Positions 13,246 to 21,896 of a DNA stretch of 37,718 nucleotides are shown in pieces; position 1 is the first letter of the stretch, and each line of letters starts with the position of its first letter. A program made the translations under genes and the position numbers. This DNA is from Polaromonas sp. (GTDB lineage Bacteria > Pseudomonadota > Gammaproteobacteria > Burkholderiales > Burkholderiaceae_C): positions 1-37,718 of the forward strand of contig JAPLPS010000120.1 in assembly GCA_026400075.1 (NCBI GenBank), given 5' to 3'. The notes under the pieces were generated by a model. The model saw nothing but the letters and a program-made list of their open reading frames with translations, made no database searches and had not been told where the DNA came from.

Positions 13246-15174
13246 ATGAACCGCAAGACCCTGATTGCTGGTGCGGGACTGGCACTGCTGGCCGCCGTGC
13301 CGCTGATGACGAGCAACTCGTATTACATCCACATGGTCGGCACGATCATGATTTACGCCATCTTGCTGTTCGGTCTCGACATCGTCGTCGGTTACACCGG
13401 CCAGGTGTCGCTGGGCCACGCCGGGCTGTTTGGCGTGGGCTCGTACACGGCGGGCGTGCTGTTCATGAAGCTGGCCGCGCCGCTGTGGCTGATCATTCCG
13501 GCCAGCGTGGCGGTGACGGCTGTTTTTGGCGCGCTGCTGGCGCTGCCCGCGCTGCGCGTGACCGGCCCGTATCTGGCGATGGTGACGCTGGCCTTCGGCA
13601 CCATCGTGCAGATTCTGATCAACGAGATGACCTTTCTGACCGAAGGCCCGCTGGGCATCACGATTCCGAAGCCGTCGATTGCCGGTTTCAAGCTCGACGA
13701 GCACGGCTTTTACTGGCTGGTGCTGGCGCTGATGATCATGTCGCTGGTGGTGGTGGATCGCATCCTGCGCTCGCACTTCGGCCGGGCGTTTGAAGCGCTG
13801 CGCGGCAGCCCGGTCGCGTCGGACTGCATGGGCGTGTCGGTCTATCTGTACAAGGTGTTTGCCTTTGTCATCAGTGCCGGGTTTGCCGGTCTGGCGGGCT
13901 GCCTGTACGCCTATTCGGAGCAGTACATCTCGCCCAACACCTACAACTTCGAGTTGACGGTGCTGTTTTTGCTCGCCGTCATCATGGGCGGGCGCAAGAC
14001 GCGTTCGGGCGCGCTGCTGGGCGCGGCCATCATCGTGATCCTGCCCAAGCTGCTTGATGACCTGGAGCTGTTTCGCATCGTCGCTTCGACGCTGGCGGTG
14101 CTGATGCTCGTGGGTGCGGTGGTTGGTGTCGCTAGAAAGATGACCACGCCCAAGACGATGGCCATTCCGGTGGTCGGCACGATGGCGCTGGCCGGGTTTT
14201 CGTTCTGGCTCGAATCCATCACCGACTGGCGCTTGAGCATTTTTGGCCTGATGATTTTGTTTGTCGTTTATTACCTGCAGGACGGCATCGTCGGTTTTGT
14301 GCGCAGCCTGTTCCATGTGCGCAAGGTCGTCGAAATGGACGCCGAGCTGCCGCAGTCCGACAGCGGCAAAGACGCGCTGGTCGCAGCCGCCAGCAGCGGC
14401 GAAGTCGGCGGCGAGCTGCTGGTGGCCAAGGGCGTGCTGATGCAGTTCGGCGGCCTGAAAGCCATCAACCTGGTTGATCTGAACATCCGGCGCGGCACGA
14501 TTCACGGCCTGATCGGCCCGAACGGCTCGGGCAAAAGCACGATGATGAATGTGCTCACCGGCATTTACGTGCCGACGGCGGGCAGCATCGAGTTTGCCGG
14601 GCGCTCGGTGGTGGGGCGCACCTCGTCGGACATTGCGCTGTCGGGCATTGCGCGCACCTTCCAGAACGTGCAGCTGTTTGGCGAAATGACGGCGCTGCAG
14701 AACATCCAGGTCGGCCTGCACCACAGTTTCCGCAGCACTTTTGCCGACGTGGCGCTGCACATGCCGCGCTACCGGCGCGAGGAAACGGCGGCCACCGTGC
14801 GCGGTCTGGGCCTGCTGCGCTTTGTCGGCCTGGCTGATCTGGCGCAGGAAGAAGCGCGCAACCTGCCTTACGGCAAGCAGCGCCTGCTGGAAATCGCCAG
14901 GGCGCTGGCGCTGGATCCGCAGCTGCTGCTGCTCGACGAACCCGCCGCCGGACTGACCGCGCCCGACATCAAGGAGCTGGTCGCCATCATCCGCAAGATC
15001 CGCGACCACGGCATCACCGTGATCCTGATCGAGCACCACATGGACGTGGTGATGGGCATGTGCGACACCGTCTCGGTGCTCGACTTCGGCCAGAAAATCG
15101 CCGAAGGCAAGCCCGCCGATGTACAGGCCGATGCCAAGGTCATCGAGGCCTATCTCGGTGGCACAGCCGCCTAA
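13246..15174 (+). CDS. livMG: LivM-LivG fusion: ABC permease joined to ATP-binding domain
   Basis: A 642-residue protein. Residues ~1-350 are the LivM permease, with about ten membrane segments, GYTGQVSLGHAGLFGVGSY (~50-67), LRVTGPYLAMVTLAFG (~102-117) and the EAA-like LRGSPVASDCMGV loop (~185-197). After a charged linker (~360-390) comes a LivG-type ATPase: Walker A GPNGSGKS (~424-431), signature LPYGKQRLLEIARAL, Walker B LLLLDEPAAGL and switch His in LIEHHMD. The signature is slightly divergent (LPYGK instead of LSYGQ). Separate livM and livG genes are the usual arrangement; the fusion is one continuous frame with no sign of an error and occurs in other Burkholderiales. Confidence 0.92.
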   Translation: MNRKTLIAGAGLALLAAVPLMTSNSYYIHMVGTIMIYAILLFGLDIVVGYTGQVSLGHAGLFGVGSYTAGVLFMKLAAPLWLIIPASVAVTAVFGALLALPALRVTGPYLAMVTLAFGTIVQILINEMTFLTEGPLGITIPKPSIAGFKLDEHGFYWLVLALMIMSLVVVDRILRSHFGRAFEALRGSPVASDCMGVSVYLYKVFAFVISAGFAGLAGCLYAYSEQYISPNTYNFELTVLFLLAVIMGGRKTRSGALLGAAIIVILPKLLDDLELFRIVASTLAVLMLVGAVVGVARKMTTPKTMAIPVVGTMALAGFSFWLESITDWRLSIFGLMILFVVYYLQDGIVGFVRSLFHVRKVVEMDAELPQSDSGKDALVAAASSGEVGGELLVAKGVLMQFGGLKAINLVDLNIRRGTIHGLIGPNGSGKSTMMNVLTGIYVPTAGSIEFAGRSVVGRTSSDIALSGIARTFQNVQLFGEMTALQNIQVGLHHSFRSTFADVALHMPRYRREETAATVRGLGLLRFVGLADLAQEEARNLPYGKQRLLEIARALALDPQLLLLDEPAAGLTAPDIKELVAIIRKIRDHGITVILIEHHMDVVMGMCDTVSVLDFGQKIAEGKPADVQADAKVIEAYLGGTAA

Positions 15175-15202: not shown

Positions 15203-15925
15203 ATGTTGAGCATTCAAAATCTCGAAGCCGGTTACGGCAAGGTGCAGGTGCTGCACGGCATTTCGCTCGAAGTGCCCAAGGGCAAAGTGGTGACGCTGAT
15301 CGGCTCCAACGGCGCGGGCAAAACGACGACGATGCGCGCCATTTCCGGCATGATCAAGCCGACGGCGGGCCAGATCAGCCTGCACGGCAAGCGAATTGAT
15401 GGGCTGGAGTCGTACACCATCGCCAAGCAGGGGCTGGCCCATTCGCCGGAGGGGCGGCGCGTTTTTGCCACGATGACGGTGACGGACAACCTGATTCTGG
15501 GCGCTTTTCCGCGCCTGACCGGCAGCCGCCCGAAGGGCGATGTGCAGGGCGATCTGGCGCGTGCGCTGGAGCTGTTTCCGCGCCTGAAAGAGCGGCAAAA
15601 CCAGCTGGCTGGCACGCTCTCCGGCGGCGAGCAGCAGATGCTGGCGATGGCGCGCGCCGTGATGCTGAACCCGGAAATCGTGCTGCTCGACGAGCCTTCA
15701 ATGGGGCTGGCGCCGATTCTGGTCGAGGAGGTGTTTCGCATCATTTCCGACCTGAAATCACAGGGCGTGACGATGCTTCTGGTCGAGCAGTTCGCCGCCG
15801 CCGCGCTCAAGGTGGCCGATTACGGCTACGTGCTGGAAAACGGCCGCATCTCCGTGCATGGCGAAGCGGCCAGCCTGCGCGACGATCCTGCCGTCAGGGC
15901 CGCTTACCTGGGCGGCGGCCACTGA
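15203..15925 (+). CDS. livF: Branched-chain amino acid ABC transporter ATP-binding protein LivF
   Basis: A 240-residue cytosolic ATPase, last gene of the liv operon, 28 bases after the LivM-LivG fusion. Walker A GSNGAGKTT (~34-42), signature LSGGEQQMLAMARA, Walker B VLLDEPSMGLAP and switch His-position LLVEQFA are all present. The LVEQ ending, in place of a histidine, is normal for LivF. It pairs with the LivG domain of the fusion to power transport. It is convergent with the PPK2 gene, with three bases between the stops. Confidence 0.93.
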   Translation: MLSIQNLEAGYGKVQVLHGISLEVPKGKVVTLIGSNGAGKTTTMRAISGMIKPTAGQISLHGKRIDGLESYTIAKQGLAHSPEGRRVFATMTVTDNLILGAFPRLTGSRPKGDVQGDLARALELFPRLKERQNQLAGTLSGGEQQMLAMARAVMLNPEIVLLDEPSMGLAPILVEEVFRIISDLKSQGVTMLLVEQFAAAALKVADYGYVLENGRISVHGEAASLRDDPAVRAAYLGGGH

Positions 15926-17437: not shown

Positions 17438-17457
17438 CCCTGTTAGTTCTGACAGGG
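17438..17457. promoter_or_regulatory. lux-box-like 20-bp palindrome upstream of the autoinducer synthase
   Basis: CCCTGTTAGTTCTGACAGGG is a near-perfect dyad with the CTG-N10-CAG core and 20-bp length of LuxR-type operators. It matches many fixed positions of the classical lux box. It lies 63-82 bases before the synthase ATG (17520), and an AT-rich stretch at about 17466-17480 (TGTAATAAATT) could be the -10 region. A LuxR-type regulator is encoded in the same locus at 21228. The palindrome could instead act as an RNA hairpin (9 bp, 2-base loop), but it has no T-run after it. Confidence 0.65.
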
Positions 17458-17519
17458 GTTAAAAGTGTAATAAATTGTTAGGAGATTTTCAATGAGGCTC
17501 TTTCAACCAGGAGTGCCTC

Positions 17520-18770
17520 ATGCAAGTTCTCGACCGCAAACTGTCTTCCGCCGCCCCGGCTTTTCACAATCCGGCGCTGGGCGCCCAGCTTGGCCAGCGC
17601 ATGGCCCGCGATTTCACGCCGCGCTGGCACCAGCAGTGGGGCGGCAAATTCATGCTGCACGGCCAGGCGCCCGGCCCCAACGCCATCCGGCTCGACGGCA
17701 ACGACTACCTCGGGGTGACCGGCCATCCGCAAATCGTCCAGGCCCAGATCGACGCGCTGGGCAAGACGCAGGAGTTTGTCGTCCAGTCCGGGGTTTTTCA
17801 CCTGGGCCAGCATCCGGCGCGGGCGCTGGAGACGGCGCTGGCCCGCTGGGTCGGCAAGGACGATGGCTTTTTGTGCCAGTCGGGCTATTCGGCCAATGTC
17901 GGGCTGCTGCAGGCGATTGCCGACGCGCAGACGCCGGTCTATCTGGACACGCTGGCGCACAAGTCGCTGTGGGAGGGCGTGCATGCGGCGCGGGCCCCGG
18001 CTTACGCGTTTCGGCACAACGATCCGGCGCATCTGGCGCGCATGATGGCCGAGCACGGCCCCGGCATCGTCGCGGTCGATTCGGTCTATAGCACCACCGG
18101 CGCGCTGTGCCGCCTGGCCGAGATCGTCGAGGTGGCCGAGGCGGGCGGCTCGATGATGCTGGTCGATGAGTCACATTCGCTGGGCACGCATGGCCCGCAG
18201 GGCGCGGGCCTGTGCGTGGCGCTGGAGCTGAGTGAGCGGGTGCATTTCATCACCGCCAGTCTGGCCAAGGCGTTTGCCGGGCGGGCCGGGTTTTTTACCG
18301 CACCGGCGCAGATGCGTTACTACATCCTGTGTACCAGTTTCCCGAATATTTTCAGCTCCAGCCTGCTGCCGCATGAGGTGGCGGGTCTGGCCGCGACGCT
18401 GCAAGTGATTCAGGACAGCGACGCGGCCAGAGCCCGGCTGCAGGCGCATACCCGGCGCCTGCGCGCCAGCCTGAGCGATCTGGGCTACCCGATTGACCAG
18501 GGCAGCGAGCAGATCATTGCGCTCGAAGTCGGGCTGGAGTGCGACACGATGGTGCTGCGCGACCAGCTGGAGGCGCGCGGGGTGTTTGGCGCGATGTTCT
18601 GCGCGCCCGCCACCAGCAGCAAGCGCGCGATGATGCGGCTGACGCTGAGCGCGGGGCTGATGGCGTCAGAATTGGCGCATGTGGAGGAGGCCGCGCGCGA
18701 ACTGGCACCGATTGCCAAGCCCTGGGACTGGCCGATTGCCCGGCGCGCCCGCGCCAGCCGGGGCGCTTGA
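17520..18770 (+). CDS. cqsA: Alpha-hydroxyketone autoinducer synthase (CqsA/LqsA/JqsA type)
   Basis: A 416-residue PLP enzyme of the alpha-oxoamine synthase family. Residues that hold PLP are visible: Asp216 and His219 in MLVDESHSLGTHG, and Lys250 in FITASLAKAFAGRAG. CqsA-type features rather than BioF or Kbl features are the N-terminus, LDGNDYLGVTGHPQIV, EFVVQSGVFHLGQHP and GPQGAGLC. The first in-frame ATG after a stop is 17520, with AGGAG six bases before it. In known systems the enzyme joins an acyl-CoA to an amino-type donor to make the precursor of an alpha-hydroxyketone signal (CAI-1, LAI-1). The identity is strongly supported by the adjacent CqsS-like kinase and LqsR-like regulator on the opposite strand. 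The acyl chain length made here cannot be read from the sequence. It is about 25 residues longer than Vibrio CqsA, at the C-terminus. Confidence 0.85.
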   Translation: MQVLDRKLSSAAPAFHNPALGAQLGQRMARDFTPRWHQQWGGKFMLHGQAPGPNAIRLDGNDYLGVTGHPQIVQAQIDALGKTQEFVVQSGVFHLGQHPARALETALARWVGKDDGFLCQSGYSANVGLLQAIADAQTPVYLDTLAHKSLWEGVHAARAPAYAFRHNDPAHLARMMAEHGPGIVAVDSVYSTTGALCRLAEIVEVAEAGGSMMLVDESHSLGTHGPQGAGLCVALELSERVHFITASLAKAFAGRAGFFTAPAQMRYYILCTSFPNIFSSSLLPHEVAGLAATLQVIQDSDAARARLQAHTRRLRASLSDLGYPIDQGSEQIIALEVGLECDTMVLRDQLEARGVFGAMFCAPATSSKRAMMRLTLSAGLMASELAHVEEAARELAPIAKPWDWPIARRARASRGA

Positions 18771-18774
18771 GGCG

Positions 18775-19764
18775 CTAATCGTGCAGCGTGCGTCCGCCGC
18801 AGCTGGCGATAAAGCGGGCGTAGCTGTGGGCCGCGCCCGGACACCATTCCTCGGGGACTGGAAACAGGGCGGCGTACAGCGGGGCGGTGGCGCCGGTGAT
18901 GCACCACGCCGGGCGCGCCTCTGGCGGGTGCAGGCCGCTCAGCGCCAGCTGCAGTTCCAGATTCGCGAGTTTTTTTCCGTCGCGGATGTCCTGGAGGATG
19001 GCAGCATCCCAGCCCTGGGATTCGGCCATTTCTGCCAGCTCGGGCAGCTTGTCGGCGGGCTCCAGCTGCAGCCAGCTGACGCCGCCTTGGGCGTTCAGCC
19101 CGAGCACACCAAAGGGCGCGCCGATGACAACATGCTCTATCCAGCCCTGGCTGAGCGCGAATTGCTCCAGCGCCTGGGCAATCAGCGGCTCGCCCAGCAG
19201 CGCCGACTGCTCGCGCGACAGGGTGGCGCGCCAGATCTGCTGGTGGCGCGGATCCGCCTGGTGGCGCTGGCGCTGGATTACGCTGCTCAGGTGCCTGCCG
19301 ATGTCCGGCGTCTGCTTGGGGATGAACTGCTGGATCAGGCCGCGATTGAAGGCCGAGACGGCCAGCTGCTCGTCAGCCCGGCCGGTCAGCAAGATGCGGG
19401 CGCCGGGCCAGTCGGTCAGCGCGCCCAGCACCTGCAGCCCGCTCATGGCTGGCATCGCGTAGTCCAGCACGCAGACCCGCATCAGCGCCAGGCGGGCGGT
19501 GCCGTCGTCGCGCCAGTACTGCAGGATTTGCGCAATCAGGCCAGCGCCTTCGCGCCAGCGGCGGATGATTTCCTGCTGGCTCCAGAGATCAGCCTCGTCG
19601 CGCTGGCATTCCTGCTGCAGCAGTGCTATGCAGGCGACGGGGCGCACGGACAGGCGCAGATGCCAATCGGGCGGCATGACTTCGGCCAGCATTTCCAGGT
19701 AATCCCGGTCGTCATCCAGAAAAACCACGCCGCCAAGTCGGCGGTAAAGGGCAAAAGAGGTCAT
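18775..19764 (-). CDS. LqsR/JqsR-type response regulator
   Basis: A 329-residue cytosolic response regulator. The receiver domain shows the acidic pocket (VVFLDDDRDYLE, ~14-23), phospho-acceptor Asp101 in VCVLDYAMPAMSG, Thr127 in ILLTGRAD and Lys150 in FIPK. An insert of about 35 residues between the second and third strands (WSQQEIIRRWREG and following) makes the receiver unusually long, as in LqsR-type regulators. The C-terminal ~170 residues show no HTH, GGDEF or kinase motif, which also fits LqsR, whose output is not understood. It lies 24 bases after the sensor kinase gene on the same strand and ends 4 bases from the convergent synthase. It should receive phosphate from the kinase. Confidence 0.8.
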   Translation of the reverse strand: MTSFALYRRLGGVVFLDDDRDYLEMLAEVMPPDWHLRLSVRPVACIALLQQECQRDEADLWSQQEIIRRWREGAGLIAQILQYWRDDGTARLALMRVCVLDYAMPAMSGLQVLGALTDWPGARILLTGRADEQLAVSAFNRGLIQQFIPKQTPDIGRHLSSVIQRQRHQADPRHQQIWRATLSREQSALLGEPLIAQALEQFALSQGWIEHVVIGAPFGVLGLNAQGGVSWLQLEPADKLPELAEMAESQGWDAAILQDIRDGKKLANLELQLALSGLHPPEARPAWCITGATAPLYAALFPVPEEWCPGAAHSYARFIASCGGRTLHD

Positions 19765-19788
19765 GGTGGATGAACGGGTATGGACGGG

Positions 19789-21132
19789 TCAGGAGGGGCA
19801 ATCATGCACGGCTGGGCGGGCCTCAGTGTAGTGCGCCACAGGCAGCTCGATGGTGAATTTCGCCCCGTGGCCGACTTGGGAGCTGACCGCGATGCTGCCG
19901 CCAGCGCTTTGCATCACCTGCTGGCAAAAAGCCAGGCCCAGGCCGTGGCCCATGTTGCGGTTGCTGGAGAAAAAGGGCTTGAAAATCTGCGGCAGCAGCG
20001 CCGCGTCAATCCCCGTGCCCTGGTCTGTCACGATGATGTGGCCCCGCTGGCCCTGGGCCAGGCAGACTTCCAGCCGCAGCGCGCCAGGGGCAAATTGCGA
20101 GTCAGCCGCCATCAGCGCGTGCAGCGCATTTTTGATCAGGTTGCTCAGCAGCTGCGCAAACTGGCCCGCATTGCCGTGAAAAATAAAGTCATCATGAATG
20201 TGTACCTGCACGCAGTCGCGCTGGCGCTCGGCGCGGTAGGGATAGGCCGCGCTGGTCTCGTTGACCAGCCGGGCGGCCGACACCGGCTCGGTGTGGCGCG
20301 GCAGCTGCAGCAGCCGGGCGTTGGTGATCTGGCTGTCGATCTGGTGGTTCATCGTGCGTACCAGGGCGTGCAGGCGCTGCGCCAGTTTGTCCAGCTGCGC
20401 GGCGCCGGGATGTCCGGGCTGGCGCTGCATTTCGATCTGGAGGGCGTCGCCCACCAGTGCCGCTGCCGACAGCGGCGTGCGCAGTTCATGCGCCATGATG
20501 CCGATGCTGGTCAGGGTGTGGGACAGCTGCTGGCGCCGCAGATTGGCCGATGACAGGTTCAGCACCATGCCAATCGAGCCAGCAAAGGCCAAGACCACCG
20601 CATGCACGGCCCACTGGCTCTCAGGCAGCGGCGGCACCGTTGGCCCCGCATAATGAAACAGTCCCCAGGCCAGCAGCCAGCCGCCCGCCAGGCCCGAGGT
20701 GCCCAGGCGCCAGTCAGAGGCCTGGTAATAGATCAGCACCATCGCCGTCATGCTGGCCAGCCAGACGGTGTTGGCGCTGTTGCATAAATACATCCAGCCA
20801 AAAAAAACCGGCAGCTCCAGCCAGAGCAGCAGGTTGAATACCAATTGGGTATGGGGGGCATCGGGGTTTTGCCTGACCCAGTCTCTCATCAGGATGATGC
20901 CGAGCAGGCTGACGGCTACCCGCAGTCCTGCATTCTCATAGGGCTGCGGCAGCCAGACCGACCAGATCCAGCCAAACAGGGCATGACCGGCCAGAAAAGA
21001 CAACCCCAGCCACCACATGCGCCGGGCTGATGCATGCAAAATGGGTTCAAGGAGCGCGAGTATTAAGTTCTCGTGTAACCATTGAAACCATTGGTGCAGT
21101 ACCAGTCTGGCGTGGAGGCCGGGGCGCCTCAC
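19789..21132 (-). CDS. cqsS: CqsS/LqsS-type membrane sensor histidine kinase
   Basis: A 447-residue inner-membrane kinase starting at GTG 21132, preceded by a TGGAGG site. About six hydrophobic segments lie between residues ~40 and 195 with very short loops, the signature of CqsS/LqsS sensors that bind a lipophilic signal within the membrane. The H box is SIGIMAHELRTPLSAAA (His ~215), the N box LLSNLIKNALHAL, the G1 box VTDQGTGID, the F box FKPFFSSN and the G2 box GHGLGLAFC. No fused receiver is present, unlike Vibrio CqsS, so phosphate must go to the separate regulator downstream. It is divergent from the luxR-type gene, sharing a ~95-base promoter region. The ligand is inferred from the adjacent synthase. 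Confidence 0.82.
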   Translation of the reverse strand: MRRPGLHARLVLHQWFQWLHENLILALLEPILHASARRMWWLGLSFLAGHALFGWIWSVWLPQPYENAGLRVAVSLLGIILMRDWVRQNPDAPHTQLVFNLLLWLELPVFFGWMYLCNSANTVWLASMTAMVLIYYQASDWRLGTSGLAGGWLLAWGLFHYAGPTVPPLPESQWAVHAVVLAFAGSIGMVLNLSSANLRRQQLSHTLTSIGIMAHELRTPLSAAALVGDALQIEMQRQPGHPGAAQLDKLAQRLHALVRTMNHQIDSQITNARLLQLPRHTEPVSAARLVNETSAAYPYRAERQRDCVQVHIHDDFIFHGNAGQFAQLLSNLIKNALHALMAADSQFAPGALRLEVCLAQGQRGHIIVTDQGTGIDAALLPQIFKPFFSSNRNMGHGLGLAFCQQVMQSAGGSIAVSSQVGHGAKFTIELPVAHYTEARPAVHDCPS

Positions 21133-21227
21133 CTTAAGAAAACCTCCAGGATCAACAAAAGAGCCCTCATGGATGATGAAGCGTGTGACATTTGCCTGTA
21201 TTTTCCACCTTTTGTTTTCGGATCCTG

Positions 21228-21896
21228 ATGACCCTACCTGTTAACTTTGACAGTCCCGCCGTCAGCGAAATCATGAGCGACTGGCTGGCTGCGCTTCGGG
21301 AGTTTTCCGTCGAATCGCTGATGGTGCTGGGGCCGGATCCTTTTGCCGGTCAGGAGGTTCGGTTGGTGCTGGCGCTGCATCCGCCGCGCCTGCTGGAGGC
21401 GGCCCAGTCGCTGGCCGAGAGCGGTGATTTCGGCGTCGCCTGGCGCGAATCGGACGCGCCGCTGGTGGCCTGGCAGGATATTTCAAAGTCGGCCTGCGAG
21501 CACCCCGAGCGCTGGCGCCGACTGTGGCTGGCGCACGGCTACCAGAGCGTGGTGCGTATCGCTTTTCCGCTCACGGTGGGGCGGGCTTTTGAATGCTATT
21601 TGTTCAGCTCGCGCCAGTGGGCAGACCGCAGCGAAGCGGCGCAGCTGGCCTGGTCGGCGCTGAACATCTGGCCTTTGCTCAAGCGCGCGCTGGCCGAGGC
21701 GCGTTGCCCCTTGAGTCCGCGCGAACTCGAATGCCTGCACCTGGCTTTTGAGGGGCTGACCGCCCGCGCCAGCGGCGAACAGATGCTGTGCAGCGAGCGC
21801 ACCGTCAATTTTCACCTGGCCAATGCGATGGCCAAGCTCAGGGTCGATAACAAGCTGGCCGCCGTGCAGCGCGCCAGCTGGTTTGGCCTGATCTGA
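21228..21896 (+). CDS. LuxR-type transcription regulator (no luxI in window)
   Basis: A 222-residue regulator. The C-terminal LuxR HTH is clear: LSPRELECLHLAFEGLTARA, CSERTVNFHLANAMAKL, then VDNKLAAVQRASWFGLI. The TVNFHL form is usual for quorum-sensing LuxR proteins. The N-terminal ~150 residues have a layout like the autoinducer-binding fold (WRESDAPLVAWQDI, HGYQSVVRIAFPLTVG), but the classical Tyr and Asp ligand residues are not convincingly placed, so an altered or lost ligand is likely. The ATG at 21228 is preferred; a TTG at 21192 is also in frame. No luxI-like synthase is in the window. Divergent from the sensor kinase gene, it is well placed to regulate the locus, and a lux-box-like site precedes the synthase gene. 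Confidence 0.8.
   Translation: MTLPVNFDSPAVSEIMSDWLAALREFSVESLMVLGPDPFAGQEVRLVLALHPPRLLEAAQSLAESGDFGVAWRESDAPLVAWQDISKSACEHPERWRRLWLAHGYQSVVRIAFPLTVGRAFECYLFSSRQWADRSEAAQLAWSALNIWPLLKRALAEARCPLSPRELECLHLAFEGLTARASGEQMLCSERTVNFHLANAMAKLRVDNKLAAVQRASWFGLI

Follow-up and report, generated by a model that had tools for sequence, protein, structure and literature searches.

We analysed a window of 37,718 nucleotides (nt), positions 1 to 37,718 of contig JAPLPS010000120.1 from a Polaromonas sp. assembly, and found that its alpha-hydroxyketone (AHK) quorum-sensing locus consists of four genes within 17520-21896: the synthase gene lqsA (plus strand), the response regulator gene lqsR and the membrane kinase gene lqsS (both minus strand), and a divergent LuxR-type gene, here called luxR (plus strand). 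The luxR gene belongs to the locus as a genuine fourth member. A lux-box-like palindrome lies ahead of lqsA, and a near copy of it lies within the first codons of luxR. The three-gene set is already known in betaproteobacteria; what is new is the fourth gene together with the palindrome at lqsA and in luxR. This LuxR is likely to serve the locus as a dedicated transcription factor for lqsA, for itself and for a small regulon, and probably as the DNA-binding output of LqsR, a proposal that we draw from sequence comparison. Outside Vibrio, little is known of how an AHK signal reaches DNA, since no DNA-binding domain is recognised in LqsR. If our proposal is correct, the transcription factor that is missing from this route would, in Comamonadaceae-type bacteria, be encoded in the locus, and its recognisable operator would list its targets. 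It would also place an AHK synthase gene under a lux-box-like site, so that two styles of quorum sensing would be linked via an operator and not via a signal.

The four-gene AHK locus

The initial annotation had placed all four genes correctly. It had also described an AHK signalling set of synthase, LqsR-type and LqsS-type proteins, which profile, structure and residue matches bear out, in a Comamonadaceae-type genome, an assignment that we support. LqsA (17520..18770, 416 amino acids) scored 544.6 bits on the NCBIfam profile NF005526, 'alpha-hydroxyketone-type quorum-sensing autoinducer synthase' (cut-off 428), and 214 bits on the bioF profile, below that profile's cut-off of 426. Its closest solved structures are those of CqsA (309 bits; the next scored 145), and its pyridoxal phosphate lysine, K250 in the motif SLAKAF, is invariant in 35 alignment rows. 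We built a tree of 38 rows, in which profile matches decided the reading frames. The rows are 19 of the 35 family synthases (alignment A2), 7 class-level synthases and 12 other enzymes of the superfamily. The 26 AHK synthases split from the 12 other enzymes at 100/100. Six of these 12 were scanned; four were over the serine palmitoyltransferase cut-off, one was over the Kbl cut-offs and one was BioF-like below cut-off. The window synthase sits with the LqsA-type synthases in this tree, so the concern that it might group with BioF or Kbl enzymes can be set aside. LqsA thus belongs to the AHK-type autoinducer synthases, and its product would, by family, be an AHK. One genome outside the family (G439) carries two CqsA/LqsA-like synthases (L158 and L159). 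One of them is linked to lqsR and lqsS; the other scores 371 bits, which is below the family cut-off, and has neither gene nearby.

LqsR (18775..19764, 329 amino acids) matched Legionella pneumophila LqsR (6sy9) at 61 bits by sequence and, by predicted fold, at an E-value of 2.6e-20. Its receiver residues D17, D18, D101, T127 and K150 are invariant in 32 rows, and profile matching of LqsR found no recognised DNA-binding domain. LqsS (19789..21132, 447 amino acids) has five hydrophobic segments ahead of its kinase core, according to a simple hydropathy scan. The window kinase matched HATPase_c over the cut-off and HisKA below it; both domains were matched in all 32 kinase rows, where H215 is invariant. 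Thus, LqsS and LqsR are linked and their phosphotransfer residues are intact. A PQPYEN-like regular expression that might tie LqsS to CqsS matched 18 of 32 family kinases and 2 of 7 outside kinases, and was not used as evidence.

The initial annotation's LuxR-type gene divergent from the kinase was confirmed far beyond the window. We surveyed 399 genomes of the family with the NF005526 profile for lqsA and a LuxR-family search at E <=1e-20; in these genomes an absence of lqsA, LuxR or LqsR means that the gene was not among the 4, 7 or 5 top first-look candidates scored per genome. NF005526 was over its cut-off in 36 of the 399, the source genome included, and luxR is divergent from lqsS in 32 of these 36 loci, the window included. 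In a 33rd genome (G335) the locus spans two contigs, one carrying luxR, lqsS and lqsR, the other with lqsA at its edge. Thus, luxR adjoins lqsS in 33 of 36 genomes. The three lqsA genomes with no linked luxR have lqsA apart from lqsS-lqsR (G009), a distant system (G129) or a contig end in an assembly that is 55% complete (G093). They showed no LuxR match above 61 bits, and all matches were limited to about the helix-turn-helix part.

We also examined 80 named loci from Polaromonas, Hydrogenophaga, Ramlibacter, Caenimonas and others. These are the best 80 of 223 matches and are therefore weighted to close relatives; they share genomes in part with the 36 family loci, so that both counts are non-independent. 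An identical four-gene set in identical order, with luxR adjoining lqsS, was present in 77 of the 80. Two of the remaining loci stop at contig edges, and in Polaromonas sp. OV174 (L077) luxR is missing between lqsS and coaX. The four-gene association is far beyond chance, and the doubt raised at the outset, that luxR might not be kept beside the synthase gene in relatives, does not hold. In a class-level survey of 369 genomes the synthase was found in 8; none of the six that lie outside the family has a relative of this LuxR, the best match being one of 47 bits to the helix-turn-helix alone. Thus, as far as sampled, the four-gene form looks like a feature of the lineage. A split version of the locus occurs in G009, with lqsS-lqsR (L171) and lqsA (L056) on separate contigs, lqsA beside another, weakly matching kinase, and no relative of this luxR.

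Palindromes at lqsA and within luxR

The palindrome ahead of lqsA, CCTGTTAGTTCTGACAGG (17439..17456), is our proposed LuxR operator O1. The initial annotation began 1 nt before it, at 17438, and left it unmentioned. The consensus is CCTGTCA-N4-TGACAGG with C/G-rich flanks, and its degenerate form is CCTGTYA-N4-TRACAGG. The degenerate form is exact before lqsA in 65 of the 79 named loci that have at least 130 nt upstream. A further eleven depart from the strict form by 1-3 mismatches and three (L077, L140 and L143) by 4-7; L077, the locus that has cleanly lost luxR, lacks the box, its best match ahead of lqsA having 6 mismatches. In the 65 exact loci the arms are fixed around 29 different spacers, and the distance from box to lqsA start has a standard deviation of 6.6, compared with 47.5 for the distance to the upstream open reading frame (ORF). 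A conserved element, TTCAAT (17488..17493, plus strand), a possible -10, lies at a fixed distance from the box: of the 62 loci with this element or a close variant, 58 have the box centre 38-39 nt 5' of it. On the plus strand, the only strand scored, there is no T run of four or more within 15 nt 3' of the box in 58 of the 65 loci. A terminator-like stem with a T-rich tail was flagged on the minus strand of the window (2 stems in the stretch, 0.4 expected). The fixed arms, variable spacers and fixed promoter spacing suit an operator better than a terminator, despite this stem. TTCAAT(G) is itself nearly as conserved as the palindrome, and may be a -10, a start region or another element.

The literature comparison here covers open-licence papers, each represented by excerpts, and what we say of them holds for those excerpts. 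The lux box ACCTGTAGGATCGTACAGGT has the same half-site and spacing as the CCTGT-N8-ACAGG layout found here (PMC4444344). By its layout, this dyad in the candidate target promoters is of the lux-box type.

The second site, CCTGTTAACTTTGACAGT (21237..21254), is the proposed autoregulatory operator O2 and lies within luxR codons 4-9. The luxR ORF spans 21192-21896; the better start is the ATG at 21228, which gives a protein of 222 amino acids (21228..21896), the length of 26 of 31 relatives. The site begins at luxR nucleotide 10 in all 77 named loci, and its mismatches to CCTGTYA-N4-TGACAG number 0 in 51 loci, 1 in 22, 2 in 3 and 3 in 1. Elsewhere in these genes the best 45-nt stretches still have 3 mismatches (2 of 1001). 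Codon choice at the site is frozen. The Pro codon is CCT in 76 of 77 genes; in the remainder of these genes CCT accounts for 9% of Pro codons. TTT is used in 77 of 77 (37% elsewhere), GAC in 77 of 77 (74%) and AGY for 76 of 76 Ser codons (55%). As these rows are related, binomial values overstate the significance. Additionally, in genomes that have only lqsR and luxR, the peptide PVNFDS has changed to PVKSDS (L069) or PVRTAS (L067, L070, L074 and L075) and the DNA keeps 0 or 1 mismatch; L071 has 2. Frozen codons, and DNA that is kept where the peptide has changed, indicate selection on the DNA. Thus, luxR codons 4-9 are under selection at the DNA level. Upstream, a TATTGT element occurs in 22 of 31 luxR genes, in 16 of these 22 at 28-30 nt before the ATG. 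The window has TATTTT, a possible -10, in its place (21199..21204, plus strand).

The palindrome also follows the regulator across genomes. We compared 70 genomes of our own choosing, of which the 28 that lack LuxR are a non-random set. An exact degenerate palindrome was found in 27 of 42 genomes with LuxR and in 1 of 28 without it (Fisher 1.7e-7, uncorrected for kinship), and a reversed control pattern was found in none of the 70. Among the genomes with LuxR, the site was exact in 25 of 33 that have lqsA and in 2 of 9 that do not. The genomes with LuxR contain 62 sites: 24 at lqsA, 2 beside lqsR in genomes that lack lqsA (G162 and G272), and 36 elsewhere. The lone site in a genome without LuxR (G013) lies between two convergent ORFs. 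Twenty-seven of the 36 other sites are intergenic, compared with 17% of random positions, and 23 of these 27 are also within 350 nt upstream of an ORF start, compared with 13% of random positions.

ORF rules called forty possible targets. Twenty proteins were scanned, 19 of them from the forty, and 12 had a Pfam match; recurring groups were joined by phmmer, with one to three members of each scanned. The recurrent candidates are ShlB/FhaC two-partner-secretion transporters (G042, G047, G105 and G164), GH5 cellulases (G099, G200 and G395), phosphonate-type binding proteins (G164, G200 and G395), TctC (G099 and G395), the PF03602 family, which we take to be RsmD (G097, G198 and G393), and an NDH-2-type oxidoreductase with a divergent gene (G047 and G164). 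In the source genome, sites with up to 2 mismatches number 15, compared with 3 for the reversed control. Since only its lqsA site is exact to the degenerate form, we claim no regulon for that genome.

The role of the LuxR-type protein

LuxR is found together with LqsR even where the signal genes are lacking. The LuxR family occurs in 43 of the 399 genomes: 33 with lqsA, 9 with lqsR beside it, and 1 as a broken fragment (G279). The nine lqsR-luxR genomes have no synthase over the cut-off and no LqsS-like kinase, only kinase-core matches of at most 125 bits in a first look that scored 82 of up to 155 candidates in seven genomes. All 42 genomes with an intact LuxR carry LqsR at more than 190 bits, and of the 17 family genomes that have LqsR and no lqsA over the cut-off, 9 keep luxR beside lqsR. 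In a tree of LqsR, the lqsR-luxR loci are scattered, with 5 label changes, at least 3 of them forced; with 20 open forks and long outgroup branches, the tree was used only for this scattered placement. The frequent persistence of lqsR and luxR without synthase and kinase favours LuxR as a partner of LqsR over LuxR as a mere receptor for the home signal.

Other incomplete loci were also seen. Orthologues of lqsR (447-500 bits) occur in five genomes of genus g71 (L164-L169; G070, G176, G254, which has two copies, G319 and G377) and in G243 (L170), with no lqsA, lqsS or this luxR within the stretches covered. In the two g71 loci that were read (L164 and L166), lqsR adjoins a gene for a protein with the same C-terminal rhodanese domain as in the window. 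An lqsS-lqsR pair in G112 (L172; genome 76% complete), with no synthase over the NF005526 cut-off, is a possible listener-only AHK locus. The fragment in G279 (L073) is a luxR remnant near coaX, with no lqsA over the cut-off, and represents decay of the locus.

The LuxR protein has a GerE helix-turn-helix (54.7 bits in the window; present in 32 of 32 members). Its structure model has a predicted local distance difference test score of 88.8, and the top full-length matches are QscR, RhlR, SdiA and TraR (Foldseek E-values down to 1.7e-10; Z up to 13.7). Against these receptors the root-mean-square deviation is about 6 to 14 A over the full length and the domain placement differs, so that the two domains fit singly better than together. 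The helix-turn-helix resembles that of QscR/CviR and is related (37% identity) to that of five PF03472 proteins of order-level relatives; the N-terminal domain is unrelated to the same five proteins by profile (probability 0.3%). The autoinducer-binding domain PF03472 was matched in 0 of 32 LuxR members at E-values up to 1. The acyl-homoserine lactone (AHL) pocket pattern of TraR-type receptors, W-x3-Y-x8/9-DP-...-W, was found in 0 of 32 members, compared with 3 of 5 control receptors. Scans for PF03472 and for LuxI covered 61 genomes each, 37 of them from the same genus as the source assembly. The source assembly, searched whole by profile, had no LuxI match and no PF03472 match; the initial annotation's remark that no luxI lies nearby thus extends to the whole assembly as searched. 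In the 36 other genomes of the genus, weak PF03472 matches occurred in three (G776, G777 and G790; 20.7-29.1 bits), and no LuxI was over the cut-off, with one match below it. LuxR solos lack a luxI partner by definition. What this LuxR has in common with AHL systems is its predicted fold and, very probably, its type of operator, a lux-box-like palindrome. The LqsR output domain and the LuxR N-terminus looked alike by eye; a shared domain was dropped as a candidate, since profile comparison gave a probability of 0.2% with those parts unaligned.

Based on these observations, we propose the following model. LqsA would make an AHK, and LqsS would sense it and exchange phosphate with LqsR; we base this part on the families of the proteins and on their intact active-site residues. 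The divergently encoded LuxR may supply the DNA-binding domain that profile matching did not recognise in LqsR. We infer that LqsR controls LuxR and that LuxR binds the boxes. By binding CCTGTYA-N4-TRACAGG upstream of lqsA, LuxR would control signal synthesis, through either activation or repression. If TTCAAT is the -10 at lqsA, the box centre would lie at about -50. On the box in its own first codons, downstream of the -10-like TATTGT element, LuxR would block transcription, and the position of this box therefore suggests self-repression. Lastly, LuxR may also control a small set of other genes, several of them for exported proteins.

Several observations weigh against this model. Fifteen of the 42 genomes with LuxR have no exact site (8 with lqsA and 7 without), and L140 and L143 carry lqsA and LuxR and have no recognisable box. 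The window's own luxR site is 2 mismatches off the strict consensus, and the distant lqsR-luxR locus L068 has no box in luxR (6 mismatches). Of the 51 genomes with LqsR, 9 lack this LuxR, so LqsR does not always need LuxR and can stand alone. Five of the nine lqsR-luxR genomes belong to one genus. Profile comparison of LqsR with LuxR shows no relation. Finally, because the genomes are related, p-values such as that of the co-occurrence test overstate independence.

The strongest alternative is that LuxR is a cytoplasmic receptor for the AHK of LqsA, or for a related small molecule, so that one signal would reach two receptors, LqsS in the membrane and LuxR in the cytoplasm, and LqsR would act elsewhere. 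We think this unlikely. Its more specific form, in which an AHL-receptor fold with a different pocket binds the locally made AHK and gives direct feedback on lqsA via the lux box, beside LqsS, seems to us equally doubtful. In its favour, the full-length model takes the fold of LuxR receptors that bind ligands; conservation of the protein is high, at a mean column identity of 74% across the whole alignment; and some LuxR solos are known to bind signals other than AHLs (PMC13419125). However, LuxR persists in the nine genomes with no lqsA over the cut-off and no LqsS-like kinase, where a home-made AHK is unexpected.

Our proposal that LuxR acts on the two palindromes must also be weighed against a quite improbable reading in which they are LexA-type sites, RNA hairpins or terminators and luxR is merely a conserved neighbour. 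The box does fit the CTG-N10-CAG spacing of the LexA site, which counts against our proposal, the palindrome can form a hairpin, and a terminator-like stem was flagged on the minus strand of the window. However, LexA is widespread and the site is nearly confined to genomes with LuxR; the box is missing in the luxR-less L077; most loci lack a plus-strand T run and the fixed arms enclose many spacers; and one copy lies within coding sequence with its codons frozen.

Least probable of all, and in our view barely tenable, is the initial annotation's reading that LuxR senses AHLs, its own or a neighbour's, so that AHL and AHK signalling meet: the predicted fold, the similar helix-turn-helix and the lux-box-like operator fit it, but the joining of two quorum-sensing types is unsupported, since PF03472 and the pocket pattern were found in none of the 32 members, the N-terminal domain is unrelated to that of the PF03472 proteins, neither LuxI nor PF03472 was matched in the source assembly, and no LuxI was over the cut-off in 36 other genomes of its genus.

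Relation to known systems

Clusters of lqsA-lqsS(-lqsR) from Polaromonas, Ralstonia and Burkholderia have already been published (PMC3376566). The window locus resembles the L. pneumophila Lqs system and the LqsR family in its homologues of LqsA, LqsS and LqsR, including an LqsR output domain without known DNA binding (PMC3376566, PMC10653808). It differs in gene order, and the excerpts mention no LuxR-type gene in the cluster (PMC3376566, PMC10653808). The LqsR family, including PhcX of Ralstonia, has been surveyed in a paper whose main text, as excerpted, does not contain the word LuxR (PMC10653808), and in the same excerpts on the Lqs/LqsR family we found no LuxR-type partner kept with lqsR (PMC3376566, PMC10653808). 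In Ralstonia, lqsR is reported to outlive lqsA (PMC10653808). The LqsR output domain has been likened to a diguanylate cyclase, with no activity detected (PMC10653808), and this leaves room for a separate DNA-binding partner.

The Jqs system of Janthinobacterium, tested experimentally in strains HH01 and HH102, is similar in that a betaproteobacterial JqsA synthase, a JqsS kinase and an LqsR-type JqsR are clustered, and in that jqsA and other regulated genes are preceded by a palindromic promoter motif (PMC3566124, PMC5080296). Its signalling through JAI-1 affects violacein and other genes (PMC3566124, PMC5080296). However, Jqs is described as three genes; LuxR is unmentioned in the excerpts of PMC3566124, and those of PMC5080296 name only separate luxI/luxR pairs and solos. 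The Jqs motif, TTGA-N6/7-TCAA, is also a different sequence from the palindrome here. We tried this JAI-1 motif as an operator and rejected it, as it was nearly absent (1 of 33 lqsA, 1 of 32 luxR and 0 of 32 lqsS upstream regions).

The locus resembles Vibrio CqsA/CqsS in its synthase family (309 bits to the CqsA structures) and in its adjoining membrane kinase. In Vibrio, CqsS is a hybrid kinase that feeds LuxU/LuxO, whereas the window locus has a separate LqsR and a local LuxR-type regulator. The Vibrio CqsS relay is described in PMC3376566. With LuxR receptors and solos (QscR, SdiA, RhlR and TraR) this LuxR shares the predicted full-length fold, the GerE helix-turn-helix, and the lux-box half-site and spacing. 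It differs from them in lacking PF03472 and the AHL pattern, in being partnered with an AHK synthase, and in having its own site in coding sequence. Among the open-licence papers listed on lqs/AHK with LuxR, jqsA, Polaromonas, Comamonadaceae genera (15 of 979 matches listed) and the box half-site, we found no title or abstract opening that describes this LuxR or the palindrome. Elsewhere in the window, the genes at 13246-15174 and 15203-15925 look like those of branched-chain amino-acid-type ABC transporters; the first seems to fuse a permease with an ATPase (642 amino acids).

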